A stretch of DNA of 64,000 nucleotides from the NCBI GenBank assembly GCA_039679385.1, contig JBDKVB010000068.1:1-64000 (forward strand), written 5' to 3'. Every line of letters starts with the position of its first letter. Positions within the stretch are counted from its first letter, which is position 1. Source of the DNA: Armatimonadia bacterium. GTDB lineage: Bacteria > Armatimonadota > Zipacnadia > Zipacnadales > JABUFB01. Below the pieces are notes generated by a model, which worked only from the letters and a program-made list of their open reading frames with translations, did no database searches and had not been told where the DNA came from. The translations under genes and the position numbers were made by a program. This document shows positions 6,201-63,281 of this stretch, piece by piece.

Positions 6201-6337
6201 CAGTCTTCGAGATACTCGTACCGCTCAGGTCCGTGGTGGAGGGCGGTTCTTGCCTCCCAGGGGCTGACGCAGAGGCTGCGCTCTGTTGCCAGGCCCTGCA
6301 GTATCTGGAGCTTCTTGATGATGATGCGCTCATCCAT
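3248..6337 (-). CDS. GH38 alpha-mannosidase
   Basis: The protein (about 1029 aa) is a glycoside hydrolase family 38 alpha-mannosidase. The zinc-binding GHTHIDVAYLW motif is near residue 230, and the catalytic nucleophile should be the Asp of WLPDVFGHN near residue 343. The C-terminal half holds the beta-sandwich domains of the family, and the length is typical. There is no signal peptide, so it probably acts in the cytoplasm on imported mannosides. ATG at 6337 is preferred because it has AAGGTGAGG about nine bases upstream; the frame stays open to 6400, so a longer form is possible. It is divergent from a beta-mannosidase-like gene, which suggests a shared mannan- or glycan-degrading function. 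Confidence 0.93.
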   Translation of the reverse strand: MDERIIIKKLQILQGLATERSLCVSPWEARTALHHGPERYEYLEDWHRVPDSSRWPAGVTVFLRTKAQVPPDWDPDCTFLRFGIDDLEGLLTLNGKPWAGVDRQHGRCPVPVGQELDLLLEFDSVPRVRCEPGLSGKTSSFGGAHLVQVNPELEAAYWDLRFAYEAFAAITDERRKALLGTALEEAFLAFRLTGDREQILAEVAQARELLAKRVSSISPDPEGGHIFLTGHTHIDVAYLWPIKETLRKCARTFSTACWMMERYPQYRFSCSQPQLYAFTKRYYPELYARIQRLVAEGRWETTGGMWVEADCNVTSGESLIRQILYGLRFWKEEFGTRPTVCWLPDVFGHNAGLPQILAGCGIDNFWTWKLHWQARNPFPHHLFWWEGVDGSRVLAHIPKLGGGAYNGSPTPQQLAEAWRTYLEKEAYPDELFTFGYGDGGGGVNEEQMEFALRACEGLQPSDKESSSSEGFPGLPACRLGTSEEFFAETRSAAPTLPTWVGELYLETHRATYTTQGQIKRANRRCELALRNAEMSATVARRLGVPVDISVLRDAWEKVLLMQFHDILPGSSVGETYEEARQAHTEVFQAAVALGSQAIRPIIGDVADTLRYGVLNSLSWERDGLVELLVPDIGDDLSAVFGGRPVPVQIVGRRGDQLMILVAGEGTPPVGGAVLELEAGFPETSKVTASGHALGNDFFRVELNAEGEITSLWDKRAGREVIAEGQCANQLQLFQDGPERESAWNVHTTSTQRRYDWDPGTEVKVTETGPVRATIQVTRTHGETTLVQDISLYHHIPWVEFRTRVSWQERQTMLKAAFPLAIHTDKATYEIQFGAIERPTHRNTSWDEEKFEVCAQNWADMSEGGYGVSLLNDCKYGHDALGNVLRLTLLRGSEYPDPKADLGEHEFTYALYPHEGDWRQARTPQRGWELNVPLFCIPTDIQRPPTSFLQVEGPAIVETWKPAEDGDGDILRLYEPYGSRGEVTVHITKVPVREVVACNLIEENAEPVPMEDGVFGFAIKPFQIRTFRIR

Positions 6338-6460
6338 CGGCCCAAGCCTCACCTTCTGGAGTGGCATATTGCTGTGTGGCAGGAAATGCATCCACTGCAA
6401 CGAAGAAGATAGCGGCTGTTGACACTACCACAGGTCACAGCACACAGGACGGTGTGAATC

Positions 6461-17921: not shown

Positions 17922-20900
17922 CTACGCAGGATACCCCGCATAGACGAGGAGATTGCGGATCAGTTTGGTGCAGACCTCGCGTTTGGCGGCGTCCTGGGAG
18001 CCGGGATCAGCCACCGGTCGGTCGAAGCTGGGGTTGACCACCAGCACTTCACCTGCGCCAACCTTCGCCTGCAGGATCGCAGGGCTACCGTTGAGGGTGG
18101 AGGCCAGAGTCTTCCAGCCCGGTGCTGCGAGGGCCACAGTGTCGTAGCTCGTAACTTCCGACAGGTCCTGGATCCGGTTCGGTGTGCTGAAGAGCGCATG
18201 CCCCGGTGTCTTGATGTCTCCCGTCCTGTCGTCGGTGTCGCTGACTGCCAGGTCGAGAGGCAGGAAGGCGGGCGACCACTGGTCGTCGTTGAGCTGCCCG
18301 ACGATCAGCTTGCCGCCGGCCGCGACCCAGCGCTCCAGACGTTGAGTAGCGGAGCGGATCTTGCCGAAATCCTTGGTGTATGCCTCGTCGCCCACGATCA
18401 GCGTCCGGTAGCGGAGAAGGTCGCTATCGCTGAGAGCCGACAGGTCGGCGATGACCTCAGGCTTGACGCCGACTGCCTCAGCGGCCTGCGCCAGCGGGTC
18501 GCCCTCGCCGGTCACCCAGCCGATGCGGTCGCCGAGCTTCTGCGGAGCGACCACGGTGACGGACAGGGGAAGAGGAGTGTTGCTCGCCTCACCACGCTGC
18601 AGACTCAGGGTTGCGGTATACGTGGTGCCGTCGGCTGCGTTCTGCGGCACCCGCACCTCCACAGCCGGTCCAAAGGCGGTTCCGACGGGCGCTTCCCATT
18701 CCGCCTGTCTGGGTAGTTGGAGCCAGTTGTGCGCATCGTCGGTCACCGAGAGCTTGCAGGCAAGAGGCTTGCTGCCCGCGTGGACGATCAGAGGGTTGAC
18801 TTGCCTGGTCTCGCCGGGTGCGAGATACACGTGACTGCGCATCTCGGCACGCTCCATATCCGGCCCAAAGGTCAGCTCAGGTGCGTCGGCGAGGCCCAGG
18901 GCGTTAAGCTCGGAGAGCATCCAGGGCATGAAGCAGGTGAACTGGGTGAAGGTCTTGCCGAAGGAGCTGAGGCCGCCGCGATACATGAACATTGAGGTGG
19001 CTTCGAGCAGCAGGTCCTTATTGGCGTGTTCCGGGTCGATGCGGCAGCCATAGGCCAGGCCGTCTCCGTTGAGGCTGACGGTCCAGGCGCCTCCCTTGGT
19101 CTGGAAGGTCTTGCACTGGGAGTAGGCAAAGCCCTTGTCGGCCGGCACGTACATCTCCCGCCACTGCGCCTCGCAGCCCTTGAGGTAGGCGGCCCGCAGG
19201 TCCTCCCGGGGCTGAGCGAGATCGTACATTTTGAGGCCGTGAAGGAGGACGCCGGTCATGAAGGCCTTGCAGCCCCAGCAGCGCGGCGTGTGCTTGCACT
19301 CATTCGGGTCCTGCCAGTGACCCCAGATGCCGCGGTCGGGGTGCTGCGTCCAGATCATGGTATCGGCGACGAGTTTGGAGGCGTTCAGGTAGGTCGGGTT
19401 GCTGGTGATGTTGTAGGTGCCCATCAGGCCGGTCATGGCCCAGCCAGCCTGCCGCTCAGCGCCATAGCGGAAGTCGGTGGTACGGGCGGAGAGCCACTCG
19501 GCGACGCTTTGTGCCGTCTCGAGGAAGCGTGGGTCGCCGGTCAGGGCGTACACGTACGCGTGGCCCTCGCACCAGCTGTGGCCGGAGTCATGAGGACCGG
19601 TGTTGAACCAGCCCATGTCCTTCCAGGACTGGTCGAAGTAGCCGCCGGTGTGCCCGGTGCAGTGCTCGTACTCAGCCCCGATGTTTGAGGGGTTCGACCA
19701 ATAGTGAACCGTGTCCACGTCGGCCTTGTGACGCTCCATCTGCTCGGCACGCCAGAGCATGTCGAGGTTGCCCGTGCGGGCAAAGTTGGCGGCCATCGCC
19801 CACTGGGTGTCGTACTCGCCGTTGCCCCAGTTCCAGGTCCGTTCCCCGAACCAGTCGCCGTAGTTCATGAAGCCGTACTCGCGAATCTGCTCGCGTCGCT
19901 GCATGAACTGGCCAAAGGCGCTGTCCAGGGTCGTCTCGTAGCCATCGAACTTGCCCGGCGTGCGCGGGAACATCGGACCGAAGGCGCCACTTGCGCAGTA
20001 CCACTGAGGGTCACAGGCAGCGAAGAGAGGCTTCTGCCAGAAGAGGCCTGCGGAGTACTGACCAGCTGCCGCCGAGATGGGAGAAGGCTGGTAGTCTACG
20101 GCAAACTCGGTGTTGAGTCGGACGCCCTGTCGGACCTTGTAGCGGCCCTTGTCGCACCAGAAGTAGAGCTTGTTGACGTCGTCGTCGCTAGCGCCTGCGT
20201 ACTGGTCGGCGGGGAGCTTCGGATGGAGCTCGACTAGCAAGCCGTTGTCGTCGGCGCTGAGGGCCTTCGGGTAGAGTTGCCAGAAGTCGCGGATCACCAC
20301 TGCGAGCGACTGTGGCCCACGGGCCAGGAGCCAGCCATTGGCACGCTTGCCCGCAGTCTCGCCGGCGGTGAAGCGGTTGTCTTCGTCCTGCAGCAGGCGT
20401 TCGCCCGCCTTGAGGGGCAGGGCTTTGCCGTCGCCGCCGCAGGTGAACTGAGCCCCCGCGAGTGCCGCCGGGATCCTGACCCGTACTCCCTGGAACAGGC
20501 TCATGTCGGCGGTGGTCACGTCGTTGTCGAGGCACAGGCTGGTCTTGACGAAGGGCTGACCAGCCCAGAAGGTCAGGCGGCAGACGTAGCGCATGAAGCC
20601 GGTGCCGGTGGCGCTGACCAGCTTGCCCTTGATGCACAGGGTCGTGCGGACCGGACCAGCGTCTTCGACAAGGATCTGCTCGGGCGGTGCAAGGGCCGAC
20701 GAGTAGACGACACCCTCGGCGTCAGTGATCTCGAACCCGCAAGCCCTGGGGTCTCCTGCCGAGACAGGCTTGCCCGCGACGCTTACCTGCGCGAAGGGAG
20801 CGAAGCCGTCAGCGGCGATCTGGAGGGTCACTGCCCCGGTGTCAACCACTACCGGCGCTGTGAGGACTGCGAGGGGTTGGCCGACGGTGGTGCCCTTCGA

Positions 20901-22658
20901 GGCAGCGGAGGTCACCGTCACTCCGGGCTTGGCCTCGGCGGCCGCCACCGGGCATTCCAGGACATAGGTGGCGTCCTCGGAGGTTGCGGTCTTCGCAAGG
21001 AAGTCGACCAGCATCCAGCGGATGTCACCACTGGGCCAGCGCGAGGTTACCTTGAACTGCGCGGGAACCACGTCTCCCTTGCTGTCCAAGAGGCGGCACT
21101 GGGCCGGGTCGGCGACCGTCCCGTCGGGTAGCGGAACGCCGGAAGTCACAGGCCAGTCCGCCCGGGGCCGGTAGGTAGGCTCGTGGACGGTGAGCGTGAT
21201 GCGCTGGGCGGTTCTCGCCCTGTCCGCAGCCAGGCCCAGTTCATTGCGACGGTGGGCTGCCGCGTTGCGCCAGACCCGGTAGGAGGCTGTGGCAGTCTGG
21301 GCCTCGTAGGCGGTCTGCGGCGCTTCCTTGCAGGTGATGGTGAGCTGGTAGGCCGAAGCTCGCAGGTCTGGCGGCAAGTAGATCATGTGGTTGTTGGTGA
21401 AGCCACGGTTTTCGGGCAGGTCGCCGCTCTGCTCAAAGGCCTCAGGTCCCGCAAGGGCGTAATGGACCGTTGCCTCAGTGGGGCGGTTTGTCGTCCAGGC
21501 GACCATCACGCGACCTGCGGGCTCTCCGGGCACGTCAGGGAGGTGCCAGGCAGCGAGGTTCTCGACCACCAGTTTGGGCGCCTGAGGCTTGCTTGCGAGC
21601 AGGCACACATTGAGGAAGCGGGCGGTGCCTCCGTTCTCGGCGGTCCGGACCTCAACCGTCTGGCCTTTCGTGATGGCCACCGGCTCGGCGGTGTAGTACA
21701 GAACATCGCGCGAGGATGGGGAACTGCCCACGATGGTGCTGACCTTGCGTCCGTTGACCAGAACGTCCAGGGCTTCGGGACGGGCTGCGTCATCGTGAAG
21801 CACCAGGCCGACCCGGTACTGGCCCGACACGGGGCTCTTCCAGCTAACGCTCCCGGCACCGTCGAAATCGTCGCTCATGAGGAGTGTGTAGCCCTCGACG
21901 GTTGCGTCGCCCGCCTTGAGACGCACGTTCTGCGGGTCTTGCCACAGGCCATAGGTGAGCTGAGGGAAGTCGCTCATGTACAGCCCCTCCGAGTTCTCCG
22001 GCGTGGCGAAGGGCGACTTGGGAAGGACACGTTCGGGATGCAGCGGCACCTCGGCATACACCCAGTCAGCCGTGTCGCTGTCGCTGGGCTTCGAGGCGAT
22101 GTGGCTCAGCACGTACATGCGGAAGTGGGTCTTGCCGTCGATAGCTTTGATGTGGACGTCGTCGGCGATGTAGAGGGTGTTGCCCTCGAAGACCATCCGC
22201 ACAGGGATGGCGGCATTGACGCGCGGGGCGGGATTGAGGATGCGCGGGTCTGTACGGGCATCAACCGCGCTGTACATGACGTCAACGCCGCGTACCCAGT
22301 CGGCCTCCTGGCGGCCGGTGGTCTTGTCGTCATCCAGGTCCGTGTAGAGGTGGAAGACGACGTCTGTTGTCGGGTAGTCTGCGGCGAAGGTGACCTTCCA
22401 TACATAGCGGTCGCCGGCGACGTGGGCGAAGTAGACCTTGTCGACATCCGGGGCCGTCGGGCCACGTCCGGACTTATCCGTCTGACCTCGCAGGCCGTCG
22501 TCGATGACCACCTGCAGGCCCTCATCAAGATCGGGATTGGTGCCGAGCTTGACTTCCACGGCGTCGGGGAGACCATCACGGTCTCGGTCCTGGGCCAAGG
22601 CAGGAAGGGCGAGCATTATAAGGAGCAGGGCAGCGGCAAGCACGCGGTTCATCGTCAT
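17922..22658 (-). CDS. Giant secreted YetA/exo-rhamnogalacturonan-lyase-like protein
   Basis: The protein is about 1578 aa with a signal peptide (RVLAAALLLIMLALPALA). Mature residues start with a calcium-binding type 3 repeat (DRDRDGLPDAVEVKLGTNP), then a beta-rich domain (YVWKVTF, YTDLDDDKTTG, about residues 70-200). From about residue 490 to 1250 the sequence resembles the YetA / PcRGLX exo-rhamnogalacturonan lyase family (VPLPDGTVADPAQCRLLDS, WPSGDIRWMLVDF, and an alpha-helical barrel with HWQDPNECKHTPRCWGCKAF). After about residue 1370 comes a glutamine-amidotransferase-like fold (LERWVAAGGKLIVGQLNDD). The size is well above the core family. ATG at 22658 is seven bases after GGAG; GTG at 22661 is an alternative. 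The substrate is inferred, not proven. Confidence 0.75.
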   Translation of the reverse strand: MTMNRVLAAALLLIMLALPALAQDRDRDGLPDAVEVKLGTNPDLDEGLQVVIDDGLRGQTDKSGRGPTAPDVDKVYFAHVAGDRYVWKVTFAADYPTTDVVFHLYTDLDDDKTTGRQEADWVRGVDVMYSAVDARTDPRILNPAPRVNAAIPVRMVFEGNTLYIADDVHIKAIDGKTHFRMYVLSHIASKPSDSDTADWVYAEVPLHPERVLPKSPFATPENSEGLYMSDFPQLTYGLWQDPQNVRLKAGDATVEGYTLLMSDDFDGAGSVSWKSPVSGQYRVGLVLHDDAARPEALDVLVNGRKVSTIVGSSPSSRDVLYYTAEPVAITKGQTVEVRTAENGGTARFLNVCLLASKPQAPKLVVENLAAWHLPDVPGEPAGRVMVAWTTNRPTEATVHYALAGPEAFEQSGDLPENRGFTNNHMIYLPPDLRASAYQLTITCKEAPQTAYEAQTATASYRVWRNAAAHRRNELGLAADRARTAQRITLTVHEPTYRPRADWPVTSGVPLPDGTVADPAQCRLLDSKGDVVPAQFKVTSRWPSGDIRWMLVDFLAKTATSEDATYVLECPVAAAEAKPGVTVTSAASKGTTVGQPLAVLTAPVVVDTGAVTLQIAADGFAPFAQVSVAGKPVSAGDPRACGFEITDAEGVVYSSALAPPEQILVEDAGPVRTTLCIKGKLVSATGTGFMRYVCRLTFWAGQPFVKTSLCLDNDVTTADMSLFQGVRVRIPAALAGAQFTCGGDGKALPLKAGERLLQDEDNRFTAGETAGKRANGWLLARGPQSLAVVIRDFWQLYPKALSADDNGLLVELHPKLPADQYAGASDDDVNKLYFWCDKGRYKVRQGVRLNTEFAVDYQPSPISAAAGQYSAGLFWQKPLFAACDPQWYCASGAFGPMFPRTPGKFDGYETTLDSAFGQFMQRREQIREYGFMNYGDWFGERTWNWGNGEYDTQWAMAANFARTGNLDMLWRAEQMERHKADVDTVHYWSNPSNIGAEYEHCTGHTGGYFDQSWKDMGWFNTGPHDSGHSWCEGHAYVYALTGDPRFLETAQSVAEWLSARTTDFRYGAERQAGWAMTGLMGTYNITSNPTYLNASKLVADTMIWTQHPDRGIWGHWQDPNECKHTPRCWGCKAFMTGVLLHGLKMYDLAQPREDLRAAYLKGCEAQWREMYVPADKGFAYSQCKTFQTKGGAWTVSLNGDGLAYGCRIDPEHANKDLLLEATSMFMYRGGLSSFGKTFTQFTCFMPWMLSELNALGLADAPELTFGPDMERAEMRSHVYLAPGETRQVNPLIVHAGSKPLACKLSVTDDAHNWLQLPRQAEWEAPVGTAFGPAVEVRVPQNAADGTTYTATLSLQRGEASNTPLPLSVTVVAPQKLGDRIGWVTGEGDPLAQAAEAVGVKPEVIADLSALSDSDLLRYRTLIVGDEAYTKDFGKIRSATQRLERWVAAGGKLIVGQLNDDQWSPAFLPLDLAVSDTDDRTGDIKTPGHALFSTPNRIQDLSEVTSYDTVALAAPGWKTLASTLNGSPAILQAKVGAGEVLVVNPSFDRPVADPGSQDAAKREVCTKLIRNLLVYAGYPA

Positions 22659-22804
22659 CACCGTTCTCCGGGCGGAACTTGGTACGGATGGATCGATACG
22701 GGCAGCACAAGAGACACTCCGTCAAGCGGCGGCAGGCAATCGTGGTGGCGCCGGATAGAGGACTATCCCCGCACGGCGTTGAACTACCGGTTCCCTCCGG
22801 CTGC

Positions 22805-47893: not shown

Positions 47894-49450
47894 GTGAAGC
47901 GGATGCTGATGGCACTGCTTCTTGCTGCAACGGTGAGCGCCGGCGCGGCCGTCGTGGATGTGACGCCTGCCGGTGTGACGCTGAACAAGCCGCGAGGGAT
48001 GAGCTTCGCCGACGGACGCCTGTGGGTGTCAGACTCGGAGGCCGGCCGGGTGCTGGCGCTCCCGGTGAAGGTGGACGGGTCTCTGGAAGCCCCGGCTCTG
48101 ACCATCACCGGGCTCAAGCAGCCGATGGAGCTTGCAGTCGCTGCGGGCAAGCTCTACGTTGCGGAAACCAGCGGTGGTCAGGTGTCCATCTTCGATGCGG
48201 CCACGGGGGAGGGACGTGGCACCATCCCGGTTCCGGCTCCGCGGGGAGTCTGGATGCTTCCAGAGGGTCTGTTGGCGGTCACCAGTGGCCCCTCGGCAGC
48301 GGCAGCCAGGGTGATGGTGTTCGATACCAAGGCCGAGGGGATGCCGATGGTTCGGAGCATCGGCCCTGGTCCCTTCGAGGTGCCCTGGGGAGTGATGGGT
48401 CTCGCGGACGGTAGCCTGCTGGTGGCCGACATGGGCAAGCGAAGAGTACTGCGGTTCAAGGCCGACGGTACGCCTGACGGAGAGTTGCCTGGGACTGTGG
48501 AAAGACGAGTGACAGTGATGACGCTCTCGGAGGGTGTGCTGAAGGTGGCGGAGTCTCCCGCGCACCGAGTGCTGACGATCGACCCGCAGACCGGGGCCCT
48601 CAAGGACGAGACGCCTTCAGGGGCAGAGACCTACCCGCAGGGGATCGCCACGGACGGACAAGGGCACCTGTTCCTCGCGCTGACCGGCACCCATCGGATT
48701 GTGCGGCTCGGTGAAGCGGGGACGGAGCCGACCGCACCGAGTCAGGTAGCCCCGGCCCAGGCACCGGCTCCGCTGGTGAGTGCGCCGCGGATCCTTGGGC
48801 GCGAGAAGCTGACGGTGGTCTGCCTGGGCGACTCGGTGACGATGGGCGTTGGGGCTCCGGAGGGACAGTCCTACCCGGACCAGTTGCAGGGGCTGATGGA
48901 CGCGCGGTACGGGCGGGGCATCGTCAAGGTGGTCAACGCGGGCGTCGGGGGCAACACCTCCGCCCAGGGGCTGGCGAGGCTTGAGACCGACGTGCTGGCT
49001 CACAAGCCGGAGGTGGTACTGATCAACTTCGGCCTGAATGACTCCTCAAAGAACGGGCCTCAGGACTACCGGTGCTCGCCGGAGGAATACCGGCGCAACC
49101 TGGAGACGCTGGTGACGAAGGTTCGCGCCGCCGGTGCGGAGCCGATTCTCTCGACCGTGACGCCGGTGCTCGAGGAGTACTACTTCGACAGGCACCCGCA
49201 GGAGGCCTACGGAGGAGACGGCGGAGTGCAGGGGCTCCTTGGACGCTACAACGCAGTGGTGTGGGAAGTCGCAGCATCCCGAAATGTGGCGGTGTCGGAC
49301 CTTCACCGCGCGGTCCTTGGCGGCGAGAGAGAGTTGCTCCGAACAGAGCAGAACTCCGGCGTTCGCGACGGTGTGCATTTCACCGCTGAGGGCTACCGAG
49401 CGCTCGCGCTGGAGTTCTTCGTGACCCTCGGCCGGGTCCTGGAGCACTAG
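47894..49450 (+). CDS. Secreted NHL-type propeller fused to an SGNH esterase
   Basis: The 518-aa protein has a signal peptide (RMLMALLLAATVSAGA), a six-bladed NHL/SMP30-type beta-propeller (about residues 25-285, with repeated LWVSDSEAGRVLAL-like units), a Pro/Ala linker (VAPAQAPAPLVSAP) and an SGNH hydrolase domain. Catalytic residues are in VCLGDSVTMG near residue 312, FGLNDSS near residue 378 and DGVHFTAEGY near residue 495. GTG at 47894 immediately follows GGAGG, which is too close; ATG at 47903 has better spacing but loses the Lys-Arg of the signal peptide. It may remove acyl groups from a glycan. Confidence 0.82.
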   Translation: MKRMLMALLLAATVSAGAAVVDVTPAGVTLNKPRGMSFADGRLWVSDSEAGRVLALPVKVDGSLEAPALTITGLKQPMELAVAAGKLYVAETSGGQVSIFDAATGEGRGTIPVPAPRGVWMLPEGLLAVTSGPSAAAARVMVFDTKAEGMPMVRSIGPGPFEVPWGVMGLADGSLLVADMGKRRVLRFKADGTPDGELPGTVERRVTVMTLSEGVLKVAESPAHRVLTIDPQTGALKDETPSGAETYPQGIATDGQGHLFLALTGTHRIVRLGEAGTEPTAPSQVAPAQAPAPLVSAPRILGREKLTVVCLGDSVTMGVGAPEGQSYPDQLQGLMDARYGRGIVKVVNAGVGGNTSAQGLARLETDVLAHKPEVVLINFGLNDSSKNGPQDYRCSPEEYRRNLETLVTKVRAAGAEPILSTVTPVLEEYYFDRHPQEAYGGDGGVQGLLGRYNAVVWEVAASRNVAVSDLHRAVLGGERELLRTEQNSGVRDGVHFTAEGYRALALEFFVTLGRVLEH

Positions 49451-53512: not shown

Positions 53513-56500
53513 CTACTGCGCCGGCTCGACTGTGGCGTGCCACAGGTAGCGGATGCCACCGGGCTTAACGGGCTGCGGCGCATGGGTGTAGAGGTACTCC
53601 AGGGCTGCCGCGGTGACGGAGGTCGAGACCTCCGGGTCAGGATAGAACCCGCCCAGACGCCAGAGCCATCCCCAGCCGTTGAGCCGATAGCCGCCGATGA
53701 AGTCGTCCTCTGGGCCTGCCACAAGCGTCACGTGTCCGGGATCCTGAGAGGAACGAGGAAGCCCGCGGTTGACGACGCTGATGGACCGGTTCACCCGGGC
53801 CGTCAGCGCCTCGCCGAGCCAGGCACGACCCTCCTCGGGGACGTGGAGAGGGACGGCAGGTTCCTCGACATCCCCACTACCCACAGGCAGACCGAAGAAC
53901 CCGGTGCCGGAGGGACCGACCGCCTCGGTCTGGACTCCCGCTCCTTCCGACCAAGTAGCGGAGTGCAGGGAGTAGCCGCCGGTCTCCCACCAGCTTCCAC
54001 CGTTCTCGACGTACTGACGGATCAGGGCGAGCATCTCGCGCCAGGTACCGGGGCCGGTCACCGGGAAGCGCTCCCCGTAGGGGTTGATGATCGCGAGCCA
54101 ACCGGTCGCGCCCGTCTTGAGAGCGTTGAGAAGGTCCGGCACCGTGCGGATGGGCTTGATCGGTACGCCGAGCTCCTGCGTCAGCCGTGACTTGCCGAGC
54201 GCCTCGAGCCACTGGGCGGGAGTGATGGTGGTCCAGCTAAGGCCCCACGCGGGCCCCAGATCGAGGACGCCGACAGCGGGCTTCGCACCCGGCCAATCGC
54301 GGGGAGCCCTGGCGGCGAGAGCAGCGGGCGGCTCGACGCGCTTGGCGGTATCCCGTCGCGGAGTGCGGATTTCCAGGGTACCCTTGGTGCAGGCGACCGT
54401 TTGGGCTGCTGCGCCGTCCAGTTGCACTACGGCGCGCGGAGCAGTCCAGTCCGGAAGGCTGACGGCAATCCGCGATTCCTGGGGAGCGTAGACCCACAGG
54501 TCGGTGCCGTTATTGCCCTGCTGTGCCACGTAGTCAACGGTGTCGGTGCCAGCACTCACGTTGGCCGCCACCATACCGGGCGCCGTGGCGTAGAAGCCGT
54601 AGGAGGGCAAGCTCTGGCCGGCCTCCTCGCGGGTGGCGGGGCCAAGGTTGACAGCGAGCTTCACGTCGCCGTAGGTGGCGCGGATCACGCCGTCGTCCTC
54701 CACCGTGGGCTCTGGGCCTCGGTCATGGCGGAAGTCGACCACGGGCTCGCCGATGTAGCGGGCGCAGACGGACTTCTGGAGGCGGTCGAGCCAGAGCAGC
54801 CATTCACGGGAGGCATCGCTGGTCAGGCCGGCGGCGGAGGTGCGGTAGCTCAGCGAGTACCCCAGGCCGAGGGTCCAGGCCAGCACCTGGCGGTTCGTCA
54901 CGAACTGGCCCAGGTCATGGTGTAGCATCTGGGTCTTGTCGTGGGCGAGGTACTGCGCCAGCGGGAAGACCTCCCAGGTGTTTGGCGGGTACTGCGTCTT
55001 CATCAGCCGACGCCAGGCAGGGCCGCCCTCAGTCGGCACGATGCTCCAGGTCATCCCGCAAAGCTGCGCCTCGTAGTTGACGACGCGATCCCAGCCGTTC
55101 TCGGTGGACAGCGGCACGGCCTTGCAGTCCTCGGCGACCATCGACACGAGACCATCGCTGTAGGCGTAGGGAGTGGGCGAGGCGGGATTGGTGTCGTAGC
55201 GCCAGCCCCGGGCCCCGCACTGGTCCTGGAACAGCACGTCGACGGGGTACTCGGTGGTGAACTGCTTCACAGTGAGGCGATTCGCCGCCTGGACTGCCGG
55301 GTGCCAGTGGCAGACCGTCCAGCCGTCGTTCGCGCTGTACTTCTCGTAGACCGGCTTGCCGTCGAGGCCTCGCAGCAACGGCTCCTCACCCTCACGAAGG
55401 AAGGTTGGGCCACGCGGATGATCGCACCACCAGGTCGGGTTCGTGTAGGGCATGACCAGTAGACCCAACTCATGGCAGCGGTCGAAGAGCCTGCGCAAGT
55501 CATCGCCGGTGCCGAAGCCGGGATTCGGCGGCAGATGATCGGGGTATTCCTTGTCGAACCCGCCCTTGAGGTAGTCGGCGAAGTGCACCAGGGTCGACTC
55601 GGGCAGCAGGTCGAGGTACTTGATCTTGTCGGCGGCATTGCCCGCGTAGTAGACGAGGACGGAATCCTTGAGCTTGGTCAGGAGTTCGGGCGACATCTTG
55701 TCTTCGAGGCGACGGTTGATCTGGTTGCTTGCGGCGTAGTCGCGCAGGCTGTCCGGTGCAGTGCGTCCGAGGCTCATGCGGACGAGTGGGGTGCGCCAGC
55801 TCTGCCCGGCGTTGACAAAGGTGCTGAAGGGCCGGTCGCAGTAGCCGCCAAGCTCATCGCCACCGCAGGCGATGCGTCCGGGCACGAAGAGGGCCTCGGG
55901 GTTCCTGGCGCCTTCCCAGGGCGCCCACTGCTGCGGCTGCACGCGATAGACCGAGCTGGAACCGTTGCGGGAGTCCAGGTGGAAGAAGTCGGCGAAGGCC
56001 GCCGGGTAGTTGGTTCCGCAACTGAAGTAGCGAAGCGGAACCATGCCGTAGTAGAAGGGGTAGCCGCCGGTCTCGAACCAGTTGCCGCCTGCGCGCACGA
56101 ACTTGCCGACGGCTTCAACGGTCTCGGCCATTCCCGCGCCCGGCAAGATCGGAGCCCACTCACCGTAGGGGTTGAGGATGACCAGGTAGTCGGGCGATGC
56201 GAGGGCCTCCATCATCGCGCGGGCAGTCGCGATCTGCTCCAGCTTCGCACGCCCCGAGGTGACTGCACGAGTTGAGGCCAGGCGGGTCGCCCAGTCGCGA
56301 AGGGTCACCTCTGCCCAGGCGCCACGTTCGGGTCCGGAGGTCAGTGAGAGAAGGCCGATCTTGGTCCGTGGCGCAGAGGCCGAAGCTGCGAGCTTGTCGA
56401 CGGTCTGGACCACCATGTCAAGGGCATTCGGGGCGTCCGCCTGTCGGACCGCGCCGCCCAGTCGCCACAGGTATCCCGTGCCGCCCAGATGAGAAGCCGA

Positions 56501-57292
56501 GAAGTAGGGACCATTGGCGGAGTCGACGAGCACCAGGTCTGCCTGCGCGCGCGTCGGAGGCCGGTTCACAACGGGCGTCGCCGTGGAGAGACGCTGCACG
56601 AGGGAGGCGCTGAGCCACTGCCGCCCCTGGTCGGTCACCTGTATCTGGACCGGCGGGTCTGCATCAGCACGCTGATCGAGTTGGCCACCGTACAGCGTCT
56701 CATATCCAACGGTTCCGAAGGGCTTGGGCTCCCATCCTCCGGGAGTCTCTTGTGATTGGGCCTCGAAGAACCGGTTGTTGAAGGCGGCGCCCACGGAGGA
56801 GCCGCCGCTCATGGGAGACACGAAGCGCTGGACGCTCTGGGGCTCAAAGCGCAGACGGGCCGGGAGTGCGAACTCCAGGATCGTCTTCTCGCGGGGCTGC
56901 ACCTCGGCGCGGAAGTCGGCGCTACCGGAGCCGGCAGTCACCGTGACGATGACGGCGATCTCGGGCGCGGAGTACTCGAGCTTCAGCCCGCCCTCGACGG
57001 TCGACCAGTGGAAGGTGCGCTCGCCGGTCGGCTTGAAGGCGGCAGCCTTGACCTCGGTGTTGTCACGGAAGCGGGCGTTCCACAGGCCTTGCTCGCCGCT
57101 CTTCCAGATCGAGCCGGTCTTGCCCGCCTGGTTGACCGACAGGAGGGATCCGTTCTCCTTGCTGAAGGAGAAAGAGTAGGTGTCACCCGTGAGCTCTATT
57201 GCGTTCGCGCTCTGGGTCACAGCCGCCGCAGCGGGCTGGCAGAAGGAGACCACGGCAGTAAGGGCAGCCAGGTATGCGATCAAGGCAATCAC
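53513..57292 (-). CDS. Giant secreted glycosidase-like protein with mirrored accessory modules
   Basis: The protein (about 1259 aa from GTG 57292) has a signal peptide (ALIAYLAALTAVVSFCQPAA) and an N-terminal beta-sandwich. A central TIM-barrel-like region (about 500-960) has HLPPNPGFGTGDDLRRLFDR, LFQDQCGARGW and other marks of DUF6259-type putative glycosidases. Two accessory modules occur on both sides: a glutamine-amidotransferase-like module (NPYGE and W[FW]ETGGY, near residues 370-410 and 1065-1110) and a module ending WRLGG (near 275 and 1210). The catalytic residues are not certain. TTG at 57283 is another possible start. It is the last gene of a minus-strand carbohydrate cluster. Confidence 0.72.
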   Translation of the reverse strand: MIALIAYLAALTAVVSFCQPAAAAVTQSANAIELTGDTYSFSFSKENGSLLSVNQAGKTGSIWKSGEQGLWNARFRDNTEVKAAAFKPTGERTFHWSTVEGGLKLEYSAPEIAVIVTVTAGSGSADFRAEVQPREKTILEFALPARLRFEPQSVQRFVSPMSGGSSVGAAFNNRFFEAQSQETPGGWEPKPFGTVGYETLYGGQLDQRADADPPVQIQVTDQGRQWLSASLVQRLSTATPVVNRPPTRAQADLVLVDSANGPYFSASHLGGTGYLWRLGGAVRQADAPNALDMVVQTVDKLAASASAPRTKIGLLSLTSGPERGAWAEVTLRDWATRLASTRAVTSGRAKLEQIATARAMMEALASPDYLVILNPYGEWAPILPGAGMAETVEAVGKFVRAGGNWFETGGYPFYYGMVPLRYFSCGTNYPAAFADFFHLDSRNGSSSVYRVQPQQWAPWEGARNPEALFVPGRIACGGDELGGYCDRPFSTFVNAGQSWRTPLVRMSLGRTAPDSLRDYAASNQINRRLEDKMSPELLTKLKDSVLVYYAGNAADKIKYLDLLPESTLVHFADYLKGGFDKEYPDHLPPNPGFGTGDDLRRLFDRCHELGLLVMPYTNPTWWCDHPRGPTFLREGEEPLLRGLDGKPVYEKYSANDGWTVCHWHPAVQAANRLTVKQFTTEYPVDVLFQDQCGARGWRYDTNPASPTPYAYSDGLVSMVAEDCKAVPLSTENGWDRVVNYEAQLCGMTWSIVPTEGGPAWRRLMKTQYPPNTWEVFPLAQYLAHDKTQMLHHDLGQFVTNRQVLAWTLGLGYSLSYRTSAAGLTSDASREWLLWLDRLQKSVCARYIGEPVVDFRHDRGPEPTVEDDGVIRATYGDVKLAVNLGPATREEAGQSLPSYGFYATAPGMVAANVSAGTDTVDYVAQQGNNGTDLWVYAPQESRIAVSLPDWTAPRAVVQLDGAAAQTVACTKGTLEIRTPRRDTAKRVEPPAALAARAPRDWPGAKPAVGVLDLGPAWGLSWTTITPAQWLEALGKSRLTQELGVPIKPIRTVPDLLNALKTGATGWLAIINPYGERFPVTGPGTWREMLALIRQYVENGGSWWETGGYSLHSATWSEGAGVQTEAVGPSGTGFFGLPVGSGDVEEPAVPLHVPEEGRAWLGEALTARVNRSISVVNRGLPRSSQDPGHVTLVAGPEDDFIGGYRLNGWGWLWRLGGFYPDPEVSTSVTAAALEYLYTHAPQPVKPGGIRYLWHATVEPAQ

Positions 57293-57353
57293 GACCTCCG
57301 GAGGTGTTGCGGGTACGGATAGCGACGGACGCGTATGACGGGAAGGACAGGTC

Positions 57354-58052
57354 TCAGAGGAGCTCGCGGGTCTGCCGCCAGGCGGACTCGTCAACGGCGA
57401 AGGCCTGCGCATGGTCGACGCCGATCTCGATGCCGCGGATTCGCGTCTGGGCCTCGTAGCGGTCCCAGTAGGGATAGCCGCCCTCGCCGCGACCGATGGC
57501 GTAGCACTTGCAGGCCCTTTCCCAGTCGGCCATCTCCTCGCTAATGTCAGTGTAGACGAAGGGACGGAACTCGCCCGGGTCTTCCCAGTTCTCGGGGAAG
57601 TACTGCCGTGCCCAGCGCATCGGGGGCAGACCGTCTAGCTCGAAGTGTCGGTTGCAGGCCATGAAGACTGCACGCTGGGTGAGGGCGTAGGTGGCCTCAT
57701 GGTCGGCATGGATGCTGTGACACCAGTGGGTGAGAATCACCTTCGGCTGCCGGCGGCGCAAGAGCTGAGCCAGGTGCGTGGCCACCTCATCCTGGACGAC
57801 CAACTCGCCGTCGCGGAAGGGCAGGAAGTGGACGGTAGCCTGGAGCACTGCCGCAGCCTCAAGGGCCTCCTGACGTTTCTGCTCGCCGTACTCGACGGCG
57901 GAGAGCCGGACGCTACCCTTCTCACCGAGGGTGAGGTGGACGAGGTGACAGTCCCAGCCGGCTCGCGCGTGCTTGAGGATGGTGGCTCCAGCGCTGAACT
58001 CGACGTCTGCGGCATGGGCACCAAAGGCGACGAGACAGGGTCGCTCGGACAT
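57354..58052 (-). CDS. PIG-L family deacetylase with altered zinc motif
   Basis: The 232-aa protein belongs to the PIG-L/LmbE family of zinc-dependent N-acetylglucosamine-type deacetylases. The usual AHPDDxE motif reads AHAADVE (residues 12-18), keeping the His, the second Asp and the Glu but replacing Pro-Asp by Ala-Ala. The Zn-binding HSIHADH follows near residue 110. Loss of the first Asp, the general base in the family, may lower or change activity. ATG at 58052 has GGGAGG upstream. It lies 61 bases before the giant glycosidase-like gene. Confidence 0.82.
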   Translation of the reverse strand: MSERPCLVAFGAHAADVEFSAGATILKHARAGWDCHLVHLTLGEKGSVRLSAVEYGEQKRQEALEAAAVLQATVHFLPFRDGELVVQDEVATHLAQLLRRRQPKVILTHWCHSIHADHEATYALTQRAVFMACNRHFELDGLPPMRWARQYFPENWEDPGEFRPFVYTDISEEMADWERACKCYAIGRGEGGYPYWDRYEAQTRIRGIEIGVDHAQAFAVDESAWRQTRELL

Positions 58053-58118
58053 AGGCGCCTCCCGTGGTGAGGATAGCCTGCGCTGAGGAGAGCCGGCTGG
58101 GTTGCAGGACGAGCAGAG

Positions 58119-59156
58119 CTAGGCGAGCGTCACCGTGCCTGCGCCGTGGGCGCTGTCGTAGATGGCCTCGCCGATCTGCAGAGACTTGACGCTGTCCCAC
58201 AGGTCCGGTCCGCCCTCCACCAGGCCGAGACACCGCTGAGCGAAGTGCTGGATCTCGCCCAGATAGCCGAAGGTGGCGCGGCTGTTGTTCACGCCGGTCC
58301 AGGTGGGCTGGAACTCTCGAACGTAGCGCCCGGCCCTGGGGGCGACCTGCGTGAAGTCTTCGCGCTCCTGCCAGGTTAGGTAGAGCATATCGCGGCACTC
58401 GACGTAGGTCTCGAGGCCAGTGACATGGAGAACCTCTCTGATGTCGCGGAAGCCGAGCTTGTGCTCAAGGCCGTTGACGTCGAGCTGGCCGACGGCGCCC
58501 GAGGCATACTGGAGGTTCACGAGGTAGGCGAACTGGGTCGGCGTGGCCTCATGGTAGATGGCCTGCAGGGAGGCAACGTCGCCACCGAAGAAGCGGATGA
58601 GGTCGAAGATGTGGCAGAGCTGGCCGATGAGCATGGAACGCTTGGCGGAGTCGATGCCCCAGATCTGGGGATAGGGCCCCTGGGCGAACTTGCAGCTAAC
58701 CTTGTGGATCGGGCCGAACTCCGGCCGGCCGAGGATGTCCTTGGCCATGCGGTAGACGTCGGCGAAGCGCTTCATGAAGCCGACCTGGCCCCAGGTACCC
58801 TTGGCCTCGGCGAGCTCGGCGAGTTCTCTTGCTTCGACGGAGGTGTTGGCCGAGGGCTTCTCCACGTAGACGGGGATGCTGCGCTCGAGGACGCGCGGCG
58901 CCAACTGGTACTGAAGCGGTCCGGGGCCGATGACGAAGACCCCGTCGAGTTCCTCCTTGTCCAGCATCGCGTCGATTTCCGTGTAGACGGCACGAGCCCC
59001 GAAGTTGCGGGCATTGCGCTCGGCCTTGGCACGGTCGAGGTCGCAGATGGCGACGAGGTCGATCTCGGGGACCTGGTGCAGGTTCGGGTACAGCGAGGCG
59101 GTGGCGAATCCGCCGGCGCCGATGAAGGCCAGCTTGGCTTGACGGGTCTGTGTCAT
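58119..59156 (-). CDS. Gfo/Idh/MocA-family oxidoreductase
   Basis: The 345-aa product is an NAD(P)-dependent oxidoreductase of the Gfo/Idh/MocA family that acts on sugars or cyclitols. The N-terminal Rossmann domain has LAFIGAGGFATASLYPNL near residue 8 and VAICDLDRAKAERNA near residue 36; the active-site VYVEKPSANT motif with the catalytic Lys is near residue 96, and QLCHIFDLIRFFGG near residue 192 is in the C-terminal domain. ATG at 59156 is eight bases after GGGAGGG. It lies between a PIG-L deacetylase and an MFS transporter. Confidence 0.92.
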   Translation of the reverse strand: MTQTRQAKLAFIGAGGFATASLYPNLHQVPEIDLVAICDLDRAKAERNARNFGARAVYTEIDAMLDKEELDGVFVIGPGPLQYQLAPRVLERSIPVYVEKPSANTSVEARELAELAEAKGTWGQVGFMKRFADVYRMAKDILGRPEFGPIHKVSCKFAQGPYPQIWGIDSAKRSMLIGQLCHIFDLIRFFGGDVASLQAIYHEATPTQFAYLVNLQYASGAVGQLDVNGLEHKLGFRDIREVLHVTGLETYVECRDMLYLTWQEREDFTQVAPRAGRYVREFQPTWTGVNNSRATFGYLGEIQHFAQRCLGLVEGGPDLWDSVKSLQIGEAIYDSAHGAGTVTLA

Positions 59157-59275
59157 GGCAGTTCCCTCCCGGAAGAATGGCGAAGGTTTCTCGCCATGCC
59201 GACAGATACCTTCGTCAAAGTCTGGCGGGCTCGCGAAGGAGGAGACTACCGATCGCTGAGTGCGGAGTCGAAGCG

Positions 59276-60598
59276 CTATTGTGAGCCGGTCGAGTCGACG
59301 TCGGGTATGGGTGGCGGCGTAACGATCCCGAGACGCTCGTAGATGGGCTGCACCGCGCGACGAACCGAACGGACCTGCGTGGCAAAGAACATCGCGCCAA
59401 GAATGGAGGCCACACCGCACAGGGTGATGGTGAGTGGCGCTCCGAGGCGCTGGGCCACACCGCCGGCAAGGAGACTACCGAAGGGCGCGGTACCTGCGAA
59501 GGCCATCATGTAGAAGCTCATGACGCGACCGCGCTTGTCGTCATCGGCGATGGTCTGGAGCATGGTGTTGCATGAGGACATGTGAGTGATCATGAAGAAG
59601 CCGGTGGCGACGAGCATGGCCATTGAGAGCCACAGGGTCTGGGACTGGCCAAAGCAGATGAGACCGACACCGAAGAGCGCCGGGGCGACAGTTATCCAGC
59701 GCCACAGACCACGCACGCTGCGGCGTGCGGCCATGCAGAGGGCTCCGAGCAGGGCGCCGGCACCCGCTGCGGCCATGAGGAACCCGAGGGTTTTTGCGTC
59801 GCCTTTGAGAATGTCCTTGGCGATGACCGGCATCAGCACCTGGTAGGGCATACCGACCAGACTGATGAGCGCGAGGAGGATGAGGATCCAGCGGATCGGT
59901 GCGAAGCCGAACACGTAGGCTGCGCCCTCGCGGAACTGGTGGCGGATCCGGCCGGCTGCGGCCCGTGGCTGGCGAAGGTTGATGCTCATGGCCAGGAGAG
60001 CCCAGATCACGGCGATGTAGCTGAGCCCGTTAATCAGGAAGCACATGCCCTCGCCGACCACTGCCACCAGAATGCCCGCTACGGAGGGACCGATCAGGCG
60101 TGCGCTGTTGAACATCGCGGAGTTGAGAGCGATGGCGTTTCCGAGGTCTTCCTTGCGCTCGACCATGTGGACGACGAGCGACTGTCGCGCGGGCATGTCA
60201 AAGGCGTTCACCGCGCCGAGGAGCATCCCGAGGGCCATCACCTCCCAGACCTGGATCCAGTGCAGGAGGACCAGGATCGCGAGGATCAGAGCCTGCACCA
60301 TCGACACTGCCTGAGTTATCACGAGCAGGCGCCGCAGGTCCCATCGGTCGACGAAGACGCCGCTGACCGGTCCCAGCAGCAGAGTGGGGAGCTGGCTGAC
60401 GAAGCCGATGATGCCCAGCCACAGGGCTGAGTGCGTCAGGTCATACACCAGCCAGCTCATTGCGATCCGCTGTATCCAGGTGCCCACCAGGGAGATGCCC
60501 TGGCCGAAGAAGTAGAGGCGGTAGTTGCGGTAAGCCAGCGCCCGCAGAACTAAGCGGACGCCTTTGGGTTCCTCGGTTGGTTGGTCTTGCTCAGCCAT
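59276..60598 (-). CDS. MFS transporter
   Basis: The 440-aa protein is a major facilitator with twelve predicted membrane helices and the N-terminal RNYRLYFFGQGISLVGTWIQ and DRWDLRRLLVITQ loop (motif A-like) of the EntS/MFS_3 group. DMPARQSLVVHMVERKEDLG near residue 140 is also common in this group. Substrate unknown; the context suggests a sugar or a small product of polysaccharide degradation. ATG at 60598 begins the conserved part, and the frame extends back to 60649. It lies 57 bases after the GH123-like gene. Confidence 0.92.
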   Translation of the reverse strand: MAEQDQPTEEPKGVRLVLRALAYRNYRLYFFGQGISLVGTWIQRIAMSWLVYDLTHSALWLGIIGFVSQLPTLLLGPVSGVFVDRWDLRRLLVITQAVSMVQALILAILVLLHWIQVWEVMALGMLLGAVNAFDMPARQSLVVHMVERKEDLGNAIALNSAMFNSARLIGPSVAGILVAVVGEGMCFLINGLSYIAVIWALLAMSINLRQPRAAAGRIRHQFREGAAYVFGFAPIRWILILLALISLVGMPYQVLMPVIAKDILKGDAKTLGFLMAAAGAGALLGALCMAARRSVRGLWRWITVAPALFGVGLICFGQSQTLWLSMAMLVATGFFMITHMSSCNTMLQTIADDDKRGRVMSFYMMAFAGTAPFGSLLAGGVAQRLGAPLTITLCGVASILGAMFFATQVRSVRRAVQPIYERLGIVTPPPIPDVDSTGSQ

Positions 60599-60655
60599 GG
60601 TCTTGCTCGGGTGACAACCTGCTTGAGTGCCCGCCGGGAAGGCGGGCACTCGGGC

Positions 60656-63064
60656 CTAGCGTCTCAGCGCCTCGATCTGTGCGGCAACACGGGAGCGCTC
60701 GGCCGTCAGTACCGCCGGGTCCTCCGTGAAGGTGGTCAGGTTCGTGACCACCTCTGCCGGGACCTCACCGATGGAAGCAGGTTTCCCCTTCTCCTTAAGT
60801 AGCTTGCGAAGCAGCAGGTAGTACTCGTAGTCCTCGAGCCCATCGCGGATGTTCTCGAGGCGGACTGTCGCCAGGGGCCCGGTGGGCCCTGCGCACATGA
60901 TACTACCGTCGCCGTTGTTGATGAGGTAGCTCGCGGGATTCCAGTCTGTGCGCGGGCCACTCGTGATAGGACGATCATTGACCAGCCAACGGTTCACTGC
61001 ATAGTAGAGGAATCCGCCCGGTCGGTACTTGGCGGTCATGGCACCCATGAGCAATCGTCCCTCAATCGCGGGGTACTCAACGAACCAGTTTGCCCAGGGA
61101 TGCTGCGGGCCGATGCAGATGTACCACCAGATATCGCGGCCCTTGCTCTGGGCCTCCGCGGTTCGCGCGGCGTTGTTGTCGAACTTGGGTGTGAGAGGAA
61201 CCCAGATCTGGACAGCGTCGCCGTTGGCACGGTCCAGGCCGAAGGTCTGATCGTAAGCGGTCGTCATGACCGGGATGTCCGGGAACTTCTTGCGGAGCTT
61301 TTCGGCCGCCTCGTAGAGAACTCCCAGTTGGTCGGCGGGACGCTCGTCGAAGCAGTAGATGTAGCAGAGCTTGCGGGCCCCGGCGGCGTCGATGGTGGGC
61401 AGGTAGGCCTCGACCGCCTTGGTCTGCTCCTCGAACTTCTTCCAGAAGTCCACCGCGTTGAAGGCCGAACCAACCGGCGCCCAGATGTAGCACAGGTTGA
61501 TGGTGTTCAGGCCCATCGCCATGAGCTCGCGCAGTCGTGCGACGTCCCAGTCCGGCGGAGCCTGGGCGTAGATGCTGCCCGGGTTCAGACGGTACTCGCG
61601 CAGCATCCAGTCCTCGTACTTGCGGGTGATGGCCTTGACGTCGACGTTGGTGCTCTTGTAGGTGGGGCCGAGATCGCGGAAGGACAGAGCGGTCCGCAGG
61701 CTCGAAGTCTTGGGGATTGCGAAGTCGTAGACTCTAAGCTTGACCGTCATGGTCTGGGAGCGGACGCCCTGAGCCTTGACGGTGAGCTTGCCCTCGTAGG
61801 TTCCGGCAGCGGCGTCCTCAGGGACCTTGACGGTGACCCACAGCGGGAGGACCTCGCCGACCGGCACGACGTCGACCTTGTCCATGAAGTCCAGCAGCGG
61901 ATCCGGCCACCAGCCAAGACTTGTGACCTTGTAGCTGGGCTGCTTGCAGTTGACGTAGCCTACGAGGCGAACCGTCGCCGCGATCTGCTTGCCCTTGTCG
62001 CTGCGCAGAGGGGACATCGACCAGGTAACGGAGGTCAGGTCGTCCTTCACTGGCACAAGGATCGTCTGGAAGCTCTCGGCCTCATTGCGCGCTGCGGCCA
62101 ACTCGAAGTGGTCGGTGTAGGGAGACTCCAGGCGGCGGGACTCCAGGAAGACCTTGCGCATGGAGGTCTCGGCGGCCAGGAGGAAGTCGACGTCCTTACC
62201 CTTCATGGCGACGGCCGCCTTCAGACGCCAGAGGAGGGCGTCGGACTGGTCCAGCTCAGTCTCCAGGCGCTGCAGACGTCCGCGGGTGGAGAGGAGTTCC
62301 TCCTCGGTGGTCGGTGGGGCGGTGCTCAGGCGGCTGACGAGTTCCTGCAGTTGGTGCTTGAGCGTGGCGGAGTGGCGTGCCTGGCGTCGCAAGTCTACAG
62401 GGAGACGATCGGCACCGTCCGCCAGGAGCGCGGTCACCTGGGTGGCGTTGGTCTCTGCGCGCTTCAGGAGGGCCTTCGCAGGCGTCTCGAGGTCGGGGCT
62501 CAGGCTGACGTTGTCCAGATAGACAGTGGAGGTTTGAGCCGGTCTGGTGAGATAGAAGTGAATCTCACTGAGCTTCTTCAGCTCGATCGACTGGCCGATG
62601 GTCTGCAGGGGCGTCGCACAGGCGGTGAGCACGTGAGGTGCCAGGGCGAAGGTCGCGCTGAAGCGATGGCCCGCGGTGTCCCGCAGCTGGAGGTTCACAG
62701 AGGCCGGGACAGCCTGAGGGTTGTAGGCATCGAAGCGGAAGGTGCCATACTTGGTGAGGAAGTCAAAGGTGGCAGCACTCTCGGTGGGGAGCCAGCCGGT
62801 CTGACGTGTGGCAACGATGGCGGGCCACTCCTCCTTGCCCGGAGCGTACTTCATGAAGGTCACGGCCGCACTGGCCTGACCGTGGGATGCCCAGGCGGTG
62901 TTGAGCGCCAGCGCGGTCTCGGTCCTGACTTGCCAGGTCTTGAGGTCCTCGGGACGCTCGAAGTCAAAGAGCAGCACCGATCCCGCCTGTGGCGTTGCCG
63001 GCTGCGCTGACAGCGGCAGGCACAGTCCGAGAAGCAGTACGGTCCAGGTCATACGTCGTAGCAT
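60656..63064 (-). CDS. Secreted GH123/DUF4091-like glycosidase
   Basis: The 802-aa protein has a signal peptide (WTVLLLGLCLPLSA), an N-terminal carbohydrate-binding-like jelly roll (FDFERPEDLKTWQVRTE near residue 33), a helical linker region, a domain with the AARNEAESFQTILVPVK pattern near residue 320, and a C-terminal DUF4091/GH123-type barrel. YIYCFDERPADQ near residue 569 holds the Asp-Glu pair used in GH123 catalysis, and GRDIWWYICIGPQHPWANWF near residue 640 is a DUF4091 mark. GH123 enzymes are beta-N-acetylgalactosaminidases; this relative may act on another sugar. ATG at 63064 has GGAG six bases upstream. First gene of the minus-strand cluster. Confidence 0.82.
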   Translation of the reverse strand: MLRRMTWTVLLLGLCLPLSAQPATPQAGSVLLFDFERPEDLKTWQVRTETALALNTAWASHGQASAAVTFMKYAPGKEEWPAIVATRQTGWLPTESAATFDFLTKYGTFRFDAYNPQAVPASVNLQLRDTAGHRFSATFALAPHVLTACATPLQTIGQSIELKKLSEIHFYLTRPAQTSTVYLDNVSLSPDLETPAKALLKRAETNATQVTALLADGADRLPVDLRRQARHSATLKHQLQELVSRLSTAPPTTEEELLSTRGRLQRLETELDQSDALLWRLKAAVAMKGKDVDFLLAAETSMRKVFLESRRLESPYTDHFELAAARNEAESFQTILVPVKDDLTSVTWSMSPLRSDKGKQIAATVRLVGYVNCKQPSYKVTSLGWWPDPLLDFMDKVDVVPVGEVLPLWVTVKVPEDAAAGTYEGKLTVKAQGVRSQTMTVKLRVYDFAIPKTSSLRTALSFRDLGPTYKSTNVDVKAITRKYEDWMLREYRLNPGSIYAQAPPDWDVARLRELMAMGLNTINLCYIWAPVGSAFNAVDFWKKFEEQTKAVEAYLPTIDAAGARKLCYIYCFDERPADQLGVLYEAAEKLRKKFPDIPVMTTAYDQTFGLDRANGDAVQIWVPLTPKFDNNAARTAEAQSKGRDIWWYICIGPQHPWANWFVEYPAIEGRLLMGAMTAKYRPGGFLYYAVNRWLVNDRPITSGPRTDWNPASYLINNGDGSIMCAGPTGPLATVRLENIRDGLEDYEYYLLLRKLLKEKGKPASIGEVPAEVVTNLTTFTEDPAVLTAERSRVAAQIEALRR

Positions 63065-63281
63065 GTCATCTCCATCCTTAGTCCAGGGAATGAAAGACAC
63101 AAAAGCGAGTGGGTGGCTCCGCGGCCGACGCCTCAGCGATGTACGAGAAGGCGACCGCGGTCACCCGAAGGATAGTTTGTGGTTCGTCCTGCGGCCTCCT
63201 GCCTCCTCCATGCAGGTGTTGCCTGGACTGCGCGAGAAGGGGCAGACACAGTTCACCCGACCACGGAGGTGGCCCGTCCCC

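Follow-up and report, generated by a model that had tools for sequence, protein, structure and literature searches.

The 64,000 nucleotides analysed here and referred to as the window (positions 1 to 64,000 of contig JBDKVB010000068.1 of an Armatimonadia bacterium, assembly GCA_039679385.1) carry on the minus strand an open reading frame (ORF) of 1299 residues (53513-57412), in which two kinds of sequence module each occur twice around a central barrel. The first of them, designated W, is marked by the motifs VVNR (residues 281 and 1213) and WRLGG (residues 316 and 1251), and the second, designated N, by NPYGE (residues 414 and 1110) and ETGGY (residues 447 and 1143). Within the single chain the modules are arranged as W-N (W1 and N1) ahead of the barrel and as N-W (N2 and W2) behind it. 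The mechanical ORF extends to an ATG at position 57412, whereas position 57292, the first base of codon 41, belongs to a GTG directly ahead of a stretch resembling a signal peptide and is the likelier start; judging from its sequence, the protein is probably secreted.

An earlier note on this DNA had described both modules as repeated in mirrored order around the barrel and had taken this for a duplication with permutation. The motifs are indeed found at the places claimed, and a blastp comparison of residues 1-570 with residues 961-1299 yields two separate and significant matches which follow each other in opposite order along the chain, one between the N modules (residues 349-454 versus about 1044-1150, 30% identity, expectation value [E] 9e-12) and one between the W modules (residues 252-320 versus about 1184-1255, 36% identity, E 2e-10). 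In line with this, none of 1000 shuffled sequences reached the Smith-Waterman scores of the N/N pair (148) or the W/W pair (121), while the two W/N cross pairs were at chance level, with 269 and 597 of 1000 shuffles, respectively, scoring at least as high.

When the profiles of 17 C-terminal copies (C copies) and 28 N-terminal copies (N copies) were compared with hhalign, 113 columns could be aligned in the order found (E 2e-29), as against 235 columns with the N profile doubled (E 1.1e-45) and 229 collinear columns with its halves swapped (E 1.4e-48, score 321), the top score among 50 column-shuffled controls being 29.4. Also at the level of the single sequences, swapping the halves after trimming of the flanks increased the mean best-domain score from 73.8 to 135.7 bits, with a higher score in 28 of 28 copies, and in 26 of the 28 trimmed and swapped copies a single domain match spanned more than 190 positions of the model. 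Without trimming, i.e., with residues of the sandwich left between the halves, a gain was seen in only two of the 28 because HMMER split the match. Both halves are thus homologous to the reference domain and stand in swapped order, which is the defining pattern of a circular permutation. The best reading is that the N-terminal W-N pair is a circular permutant of one domain which has its canonical order in the C copy, so that the permutation proposed in the earlier note concerns one domain as a whole and not two loose mirrored modules.

The arrangement is not confined to the window. Scanning one genome per species with short query peptides gave 32 related loci, the titles of which refer to Armatimonadetes or allied groups, Verrucomicrobia, Lentisphaerae, Kiritimatiellae, Planctomycetes or just 'bacterium', and some whole-protein match, in part to the barrel only, was found in 47 of 201 genomes from the window's own phylum. 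The related set comprised 62 ORFs, the window included, with a barrel match below 1e-30 and with identical barrels counted once, in which the modules were called with a profile of each. Twenty-seven of these ORFs have W-N upstream and N-W downstream of the barrel, and 25 have the upstream pair only, 24 of these with a stop codon at their end and L071 being cut. The remainder have the upstream pair and a lone downstream N (two ORFs), a lone upstream N with the downstream pair (three), a lone upstream N only (one), the downstream pair with nothing upstream (two, L079 and the cut L065), or neither pair (two, L078 and the cut L033). Wherever both upstream modules are present (54 ORFs) their order is W-N, and wherever both downstream modules are present (32 ORFs) it is N-W; since the 54 ORFs stem from many genomes and all agree, an artefact of assembly or reading was rejected. 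The full upstream pair is missing from eight ORFs, six of which are cut by an edge or frame-broken (L027, L028, L029, L033, L065 and L074), leaving L078 and L079 as the two cases of genuine absence.

Several single loci of the family deserve mention in their own right. L050, from a genome of the window's phylum, agrees with L002 (titled Abditibacteriaceae) in ORF length and in the positions of the modules. Genome G079 harbours a long form (L055) as well as a divergent one in which only the upstream pair is present (L083). On contig C521 of genome G094 (L063 and L085), the C copy of a long form is split, one frame stopping inside N2 and a separate frame of 223 residues carrying the remainder, so that the copy is either decaying or broken by an error in the frame. 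The frame of L019 continues for 676 residues beyond the C copy (L019:8430-10457) and there matches a xylose-isomerase-like TIM barrel, which is either a fusion or the result of a lost stop codon. Finally, in a relative from the Planctomycetes the C copy is followed by a type I dockerin (L009:8679-9014, PF00404, E 1.3e-5), which would agree with a secreted protein acting in polysaccharide degradation.

Confident AlphaFold2 models were obtained for residues 74-1273 (32 sequences; predicted local distance difference test [pLDDT] 87.7, predicted template modelling score [pTM] 0.76) and for the C copy alone (17 sequences; pLDDT 91.6, pTM 0.92). Compared element by element, both copies are predicted to be built from the same secondary structure elements, the order of which is permuted. 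The modelled C copy runs from the strand SWWE via the elbow to strand 1151-1156, a turn and strand 1159-1164, and then through the W half with its final helix. The N copy, by comparison, begins with strand 226-231, the counterpart of 1159-1164, and then comprises the W half, the helix of which ends at residue 343, from where a linker of about seven residues (344-350) leads to the first strand (351-355); it finishes with strand 455-460, the counterpart of 1151-1156. According to these models, the break of the permutation is the turn of the beta-hairpin after the elbow, and the N copy, opened at this hairpin, would be inserted in the first beta-sandwich of a GH129-like scaffold.

Which of the two orders is the reference is indicated independently of the window protein, as the B domain of GH42 enzymes (5xb7_A: Z-score 15.2, 195 aligned residues, root mean square deviation [rmsd] 3.1) and the folds of ThuA-like proteins (Z-score about 12) are both collinear with the C copy, and as L079, too, has N followed by W. 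The fold and order of the C copy recur in the trimerisation domain of GH42 beta-galactosidases (PF08532), in the GH5 enzyme Op5Man5 (7bob) and in GH164 (6t7g), although at the sequence level none of the 17 C copies matched the PF08532 profile at E values up to 5. Unlike in GH42, the domain is found here on a GH129-like barrel and together with a second, permuted copy. The fold is also shared with ThuA-like and class I glutamine-amidotransferase-like proteins (1t0b, 4pxy, 2gk3; Z-score about 12), which the family differs from by lacking a conserved cysteine at the elbow: in any of the columns 440-456, Cys occurs in at most one of 54 N copies and five of 32 C copies. The designation of the modules as glutamine-amidotransferase-like thus holds for the predicted fold, and an active amidotransferase is ruled out by the missing cysteine. 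As a separate observation, an NPYG-like N half is located in the N-terminal part of GH5/GH42-like enzymes from the same phylum (L129, L130 and L135); the GH5/GH42-like ORFs of L129-L135 gave a confident match to the N half only.

A mirrored order could in principle also arise without any permutation, if W1 and N1 had been inserted independently or if the halves paired across the protein (W1 with N2, N1 with W2), as a discontinuous composite domain might leave the same pattern in the sequence. That the flanking modules might pack together as one composite domain had likewise been raised in the earlier note. However, 24 of the 62 ORFs stop with the upstream pair alone, which must therefore fold without the downstream pair, and the downstream pair in isolation is itself predicted to fold with high confidence (see above); the composite of flanking modules was therefore rejected. 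Furthermore, only the short linker mentioned above separates the W1 helix from the first strand of N1, and the conserved residues of both halves are common to both copies (see below), rendering an origin without permutation most improbable.

The site of insertion can be delineated with the help of the two ORFs that genuinely lack the upstream pair, L078, which has neither copy, and L079, which has the canonical C copy only. Both continue straight along the sandwich to YPPAFCDF where the window protein has its insert, and excision of the latter (from about 212-224 to about 460-468) raises the local alignment score from 468 to 496 with L078 and from 417 to 484 with L079. At the other end of the protein, short forms such as L008, L010, L021 and L022 have a segment similar to YLWHATV directly after the C-terminal sandwich, where long forms have the C copy, and this junction, as read from the sequences, would be the empty site of that copy.

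The most likely scenario is that the canonical domain was duplicated in an ancestor and that one of the copies, permuted through a duplication with subsequent trimming, was inserted there in a single event. The old C-terminal helix would thereby have been joined to the old first strand via residues 344-350 and the chain opened at the hairpin after the elbow, with both new ends entering the first beta-sandwich, while the other copy, which has the canonical order and lies just ahead of the last chain segment, would afterwards have been lost several times. In the barrel tree, which was rooted by choice on L078 and L079, a long branch (support 100) separates these two from the other rows, and forms with and without a C copy alternate amongst the remainder, with seven changes among the rows counted; this alternation is taken for repeated loss of the C copy. 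When the domain tree is rooted at its midpoint, the 31 C copies of the ingroup constitute one side of a branch with a value of 95 in the Shimodaira-Hasegawa-like approximate likelihood ratio test (SH-aLRT), and the N copies need two changes. Altogether, it appears probable that the ORF codes for a GH129-like glycosidase with two copies of a class I glutamine-amidotransferase-like fold that is no amidotransferase, the N-terminal one being circularly permuted, and that this arrangement arose by duplication, permutation and insertion with subsequent losses of the C copy.

Several observations weigh against this history. The lineages nearest to the outgroup (L080, L082, L083 and L075-L077) have an N copy only, eight divergent N copies lie on the same side of the domain tree as the C copies, long branches meet in the barrel tree, and removal of the insert yields only a modest gain with L078. 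Also, no remnant of a C copy was detected at E values up to 0.1 within 1500 bases downstream of the 24 stop-terminated ORFs with the upstream pair only or of L078, and the losses are consequently deduced from the tree alone. There is also little to fix the direction of the event, because no more than two outgroups are known and the domain of L079 is divergent (N half E 3e-6, W half E 2e-16) and sits on a long branch. The permuted N copy might accordingly be the older one and the C copy a later gain in canonical order, either de-permuted or acquired from another glycosidase. Such a reversal would agree with the N copy, or part of it, being present in every ingroup ORF that reaches the region and the C copy in some only, and with the N-only lineages next to the outgroup; the missing remnants lend it slightly more weight, and the C copies on one side of a branch with some divergent N copies nearby would be compatible with it. 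However, L079, taken as outgroup, has a canonical C copy without an N copy, un-permuting a domain would be an additional step, and the barrel tree to which the N-only lineages owe their position suffers from the said long branches and has a root chosen by the analyst. A later gain of the C copy is hence regarded as rather unlikely, and duplication followed by permutation and insertion as the preferred course of events.

With respect to the barrel itself, the protein scores 30.7 bits against PF19773 (DUF6259; curated cut-off 28.7), and neither the window protein nor the 17 C copies have a match in NCBIfam. The predicted structure matches the sandwich-barrel-sandwich fold of GH129 and GH129-like enzymes, i.e., the alpha-N-acetylgalactosaminidase NagBb (5wzn/5wzp) and the 3,6-anhydro-D-galactosidase DagB from Zobellia (5opq), from model residue 1 to about 870-907 with Z-scores of 25-28; for the scaffold, the values are 28.4 with 5opq_D (565 aligned residues, rmsd 4.4) and 26.2 with 5wzp_A (536 aligned residues, rmsd 3.3). 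Identity to these proteins is only 10-15%, and the match covers almost all of their about 600-660 residues, so that a comparable insert would not fit. Further weak profile matches of the C copy or the whole protein, to viral RNA polymerase L and ubiquitin thioesterase chains, had E values of 0.027-0.47 and were taken as chance.

Two acidic residues 41 positions apart stand out in the barrel, Asp730, present in 62 of 63 rows with a gap in L020, and Glu771, present in 63 of 63 (the window being counted twice). The catalytic Glu of NagBb is presumably Glu478. With Asp730 and Glu771 as candidate catalytic pair, the enzyme may hydrolyse an alpha-linked galactose-type sugar, and judged by its modelled fold it is likely to be a retaining alpha-glycosidase. 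The assignment to GH129 has two points against it: the best match to a GH129 sequence profile (5wzn, E 0.074) is marginal, and, according to passages of the DagB paper, the catalytic Asp435 of NagBb corresponds to Asp486 of DagB whereas the second catalytic residue is not kept, for which reason its authors place DagB outside GH129 (PMC5698469).

Six residues derived from both halves are almost invariant in the two accessory copies, namely Asn414 (54 of 54 N copies, 32 of 32 C copies), Glu418 (54/54 and 31/32), Trp445 (54/54 and 31/32), Glu447 (50/54 and 32/32), Arg284 (54/54 and 32/32) and Arg317 (52/54 and 31/32). This conservation suggests that both copies keep the same putative site. By analogy with the B domain of GH42, the two domains may shape the active-site entrance or the oligomer. 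There is about an even chance that they merely hold an oligomer together as in the trimeric GH42 enzymes and bind no ligand, considering that the GH42 trimerisation domain is the closest fold and that, according to a passage on the GH5 mannosidase Op5Man5, the same domain there touches the barrel of the neighbouring chain (PMC8233224). The nearly invariant polar residues of both copies exceed the needs of oligomer contacts, but they could also constitute a buried structural network. A more far-reaching and at present doubtful possibility is that the canonical and the permuted copy form a pseudo-symmetric pair clamping the entrance to the GH129-like active site, each with the same putative sugar-binding site made up of the six residues or their counterparts. 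If this were true, the amidotransferase-like fold would have been put to a new use in ligand binding, and it would be the permutation that enabled a second copy to be placed on the opposite side of the barrel.

Accessory domains of the GH42 type, the insertion of domains and circular permutation are each known, and natural circular permutations have usually been inferred across different proteins. As judged by titles, beginnings of abstracts and passages of the open-access papers listed (subscription papers and preprints being outside the scope), no account of a permuted and a canonical amidotransferase-like copy in one glycosidase was found, and no paper on DUF6259. Natural circular permutation within glycosidases is described, in a passage of a published article, for MalS (GH13_19) and the GH70 glucansucrases (PMC10223318). 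In those enzymes it is the core domains themselves that are permuted, whereas in the window protein it is an accessory domain, alongside an unpermuted copy in the same chain. With both versions conserved in one chain and with outgroups that are free of the insert or have the canonical copy only, the steps of a permutation, and the question of whether permutation eases the insertion of a domain, become directly testable. In addition, a branch of a family listed in Pfam only as DUF6259 is provided with a predicted fold and a likely enzyme class.

Table 1. Parts of the 1299-residue ORF and their positions in the window
Part	Position	Strand	Basis or remark
Whole ORF, 1299 residues	53513..57412	-	likely start GTG, codon 41 (57292)
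Signal-peptide-like hydrophobic stretch, residues 41-64	57221..57292	-	translation read by eye
N-terminal beta-sandwich, first part, residues ~66-217	56762..57217	-	AlphaFold2 strands; GH129 matches begin at model residue 1 (residue 74)
W1, putative C-terminal half of permuted copy, residues 224-346 (WRLGG and final helix)	56375..56743	-	repeat and profile evidence, AlphaFold2
N1, putative N-terminal half of permuted copy, residues 347-460 (NPYGE ... WFETGGY)	56033..56374	-	repeat and profile evidence, AlphaFold2
N-terminal beta-sandwich, second part, residues ~461-556 (YPAAFADF from 469)	55745..56032	-	collinear with insert-free outgroups L078 and L079
GH129-like catalytic barrel region, residues ~557-888; PF19773 (DUF6259) over 557-734	54749..55744	-	profile match, AlphaFold2, fold match
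Candidate nucleophile Asp730 (FQDQ)	55223..55225	-	Asp in 62/63 rows; gap in L020
Candidate acid/base Glu771 (TENGW)	55100..55102	-	Glu in 63/63 rows
C-terminal beta-sandwich, residues ~889-1030	54323..54748	-	AlphaFold2 strands
N2, N-terminal half of canonical copy, residues 1045-1156	53945..54280	-	repeat and profile evidence, AlphaFold2
W2, C-terminal half of canonical copy, residues 1157-1282	53567..53944	-	repeat and profile evidence, AlphaFold2
Terminal segment YLWHATV, residues 1289-1295	53528..53548	-	alignment

Just upstream of the ORF and on the same strand are genes for a PIG-L deacetylase, a Gfo/Idh oxidoreductase, an MFS transporter and a GH123-like protein (57354-63100, minus strand), a set resembling a sugar-use operon. 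A blastp comparison of six neighbours with the ORFs of L001-L088, the flanks of which extend over about 5 kb at most and are often shorter, gave nothing apart from the window's own locus and weak Gfo/Idh matches in L023 and L029, and because of these short flanks it says little on the substrate. Elsewhere in the window, an ORF of 1579 residues (17922-22661, minus strand) has PcRGLX-like domains preceded by an N-terminal stretch of about 500 residues that no Pfam family matches, a GH38 alpha-mannosidase gene adjoins a GH2-like gene on the opposite strand (3248-8971), and NHL-type repeats are combined with a GDSL esterase domain in a single ORF (47894-49450).

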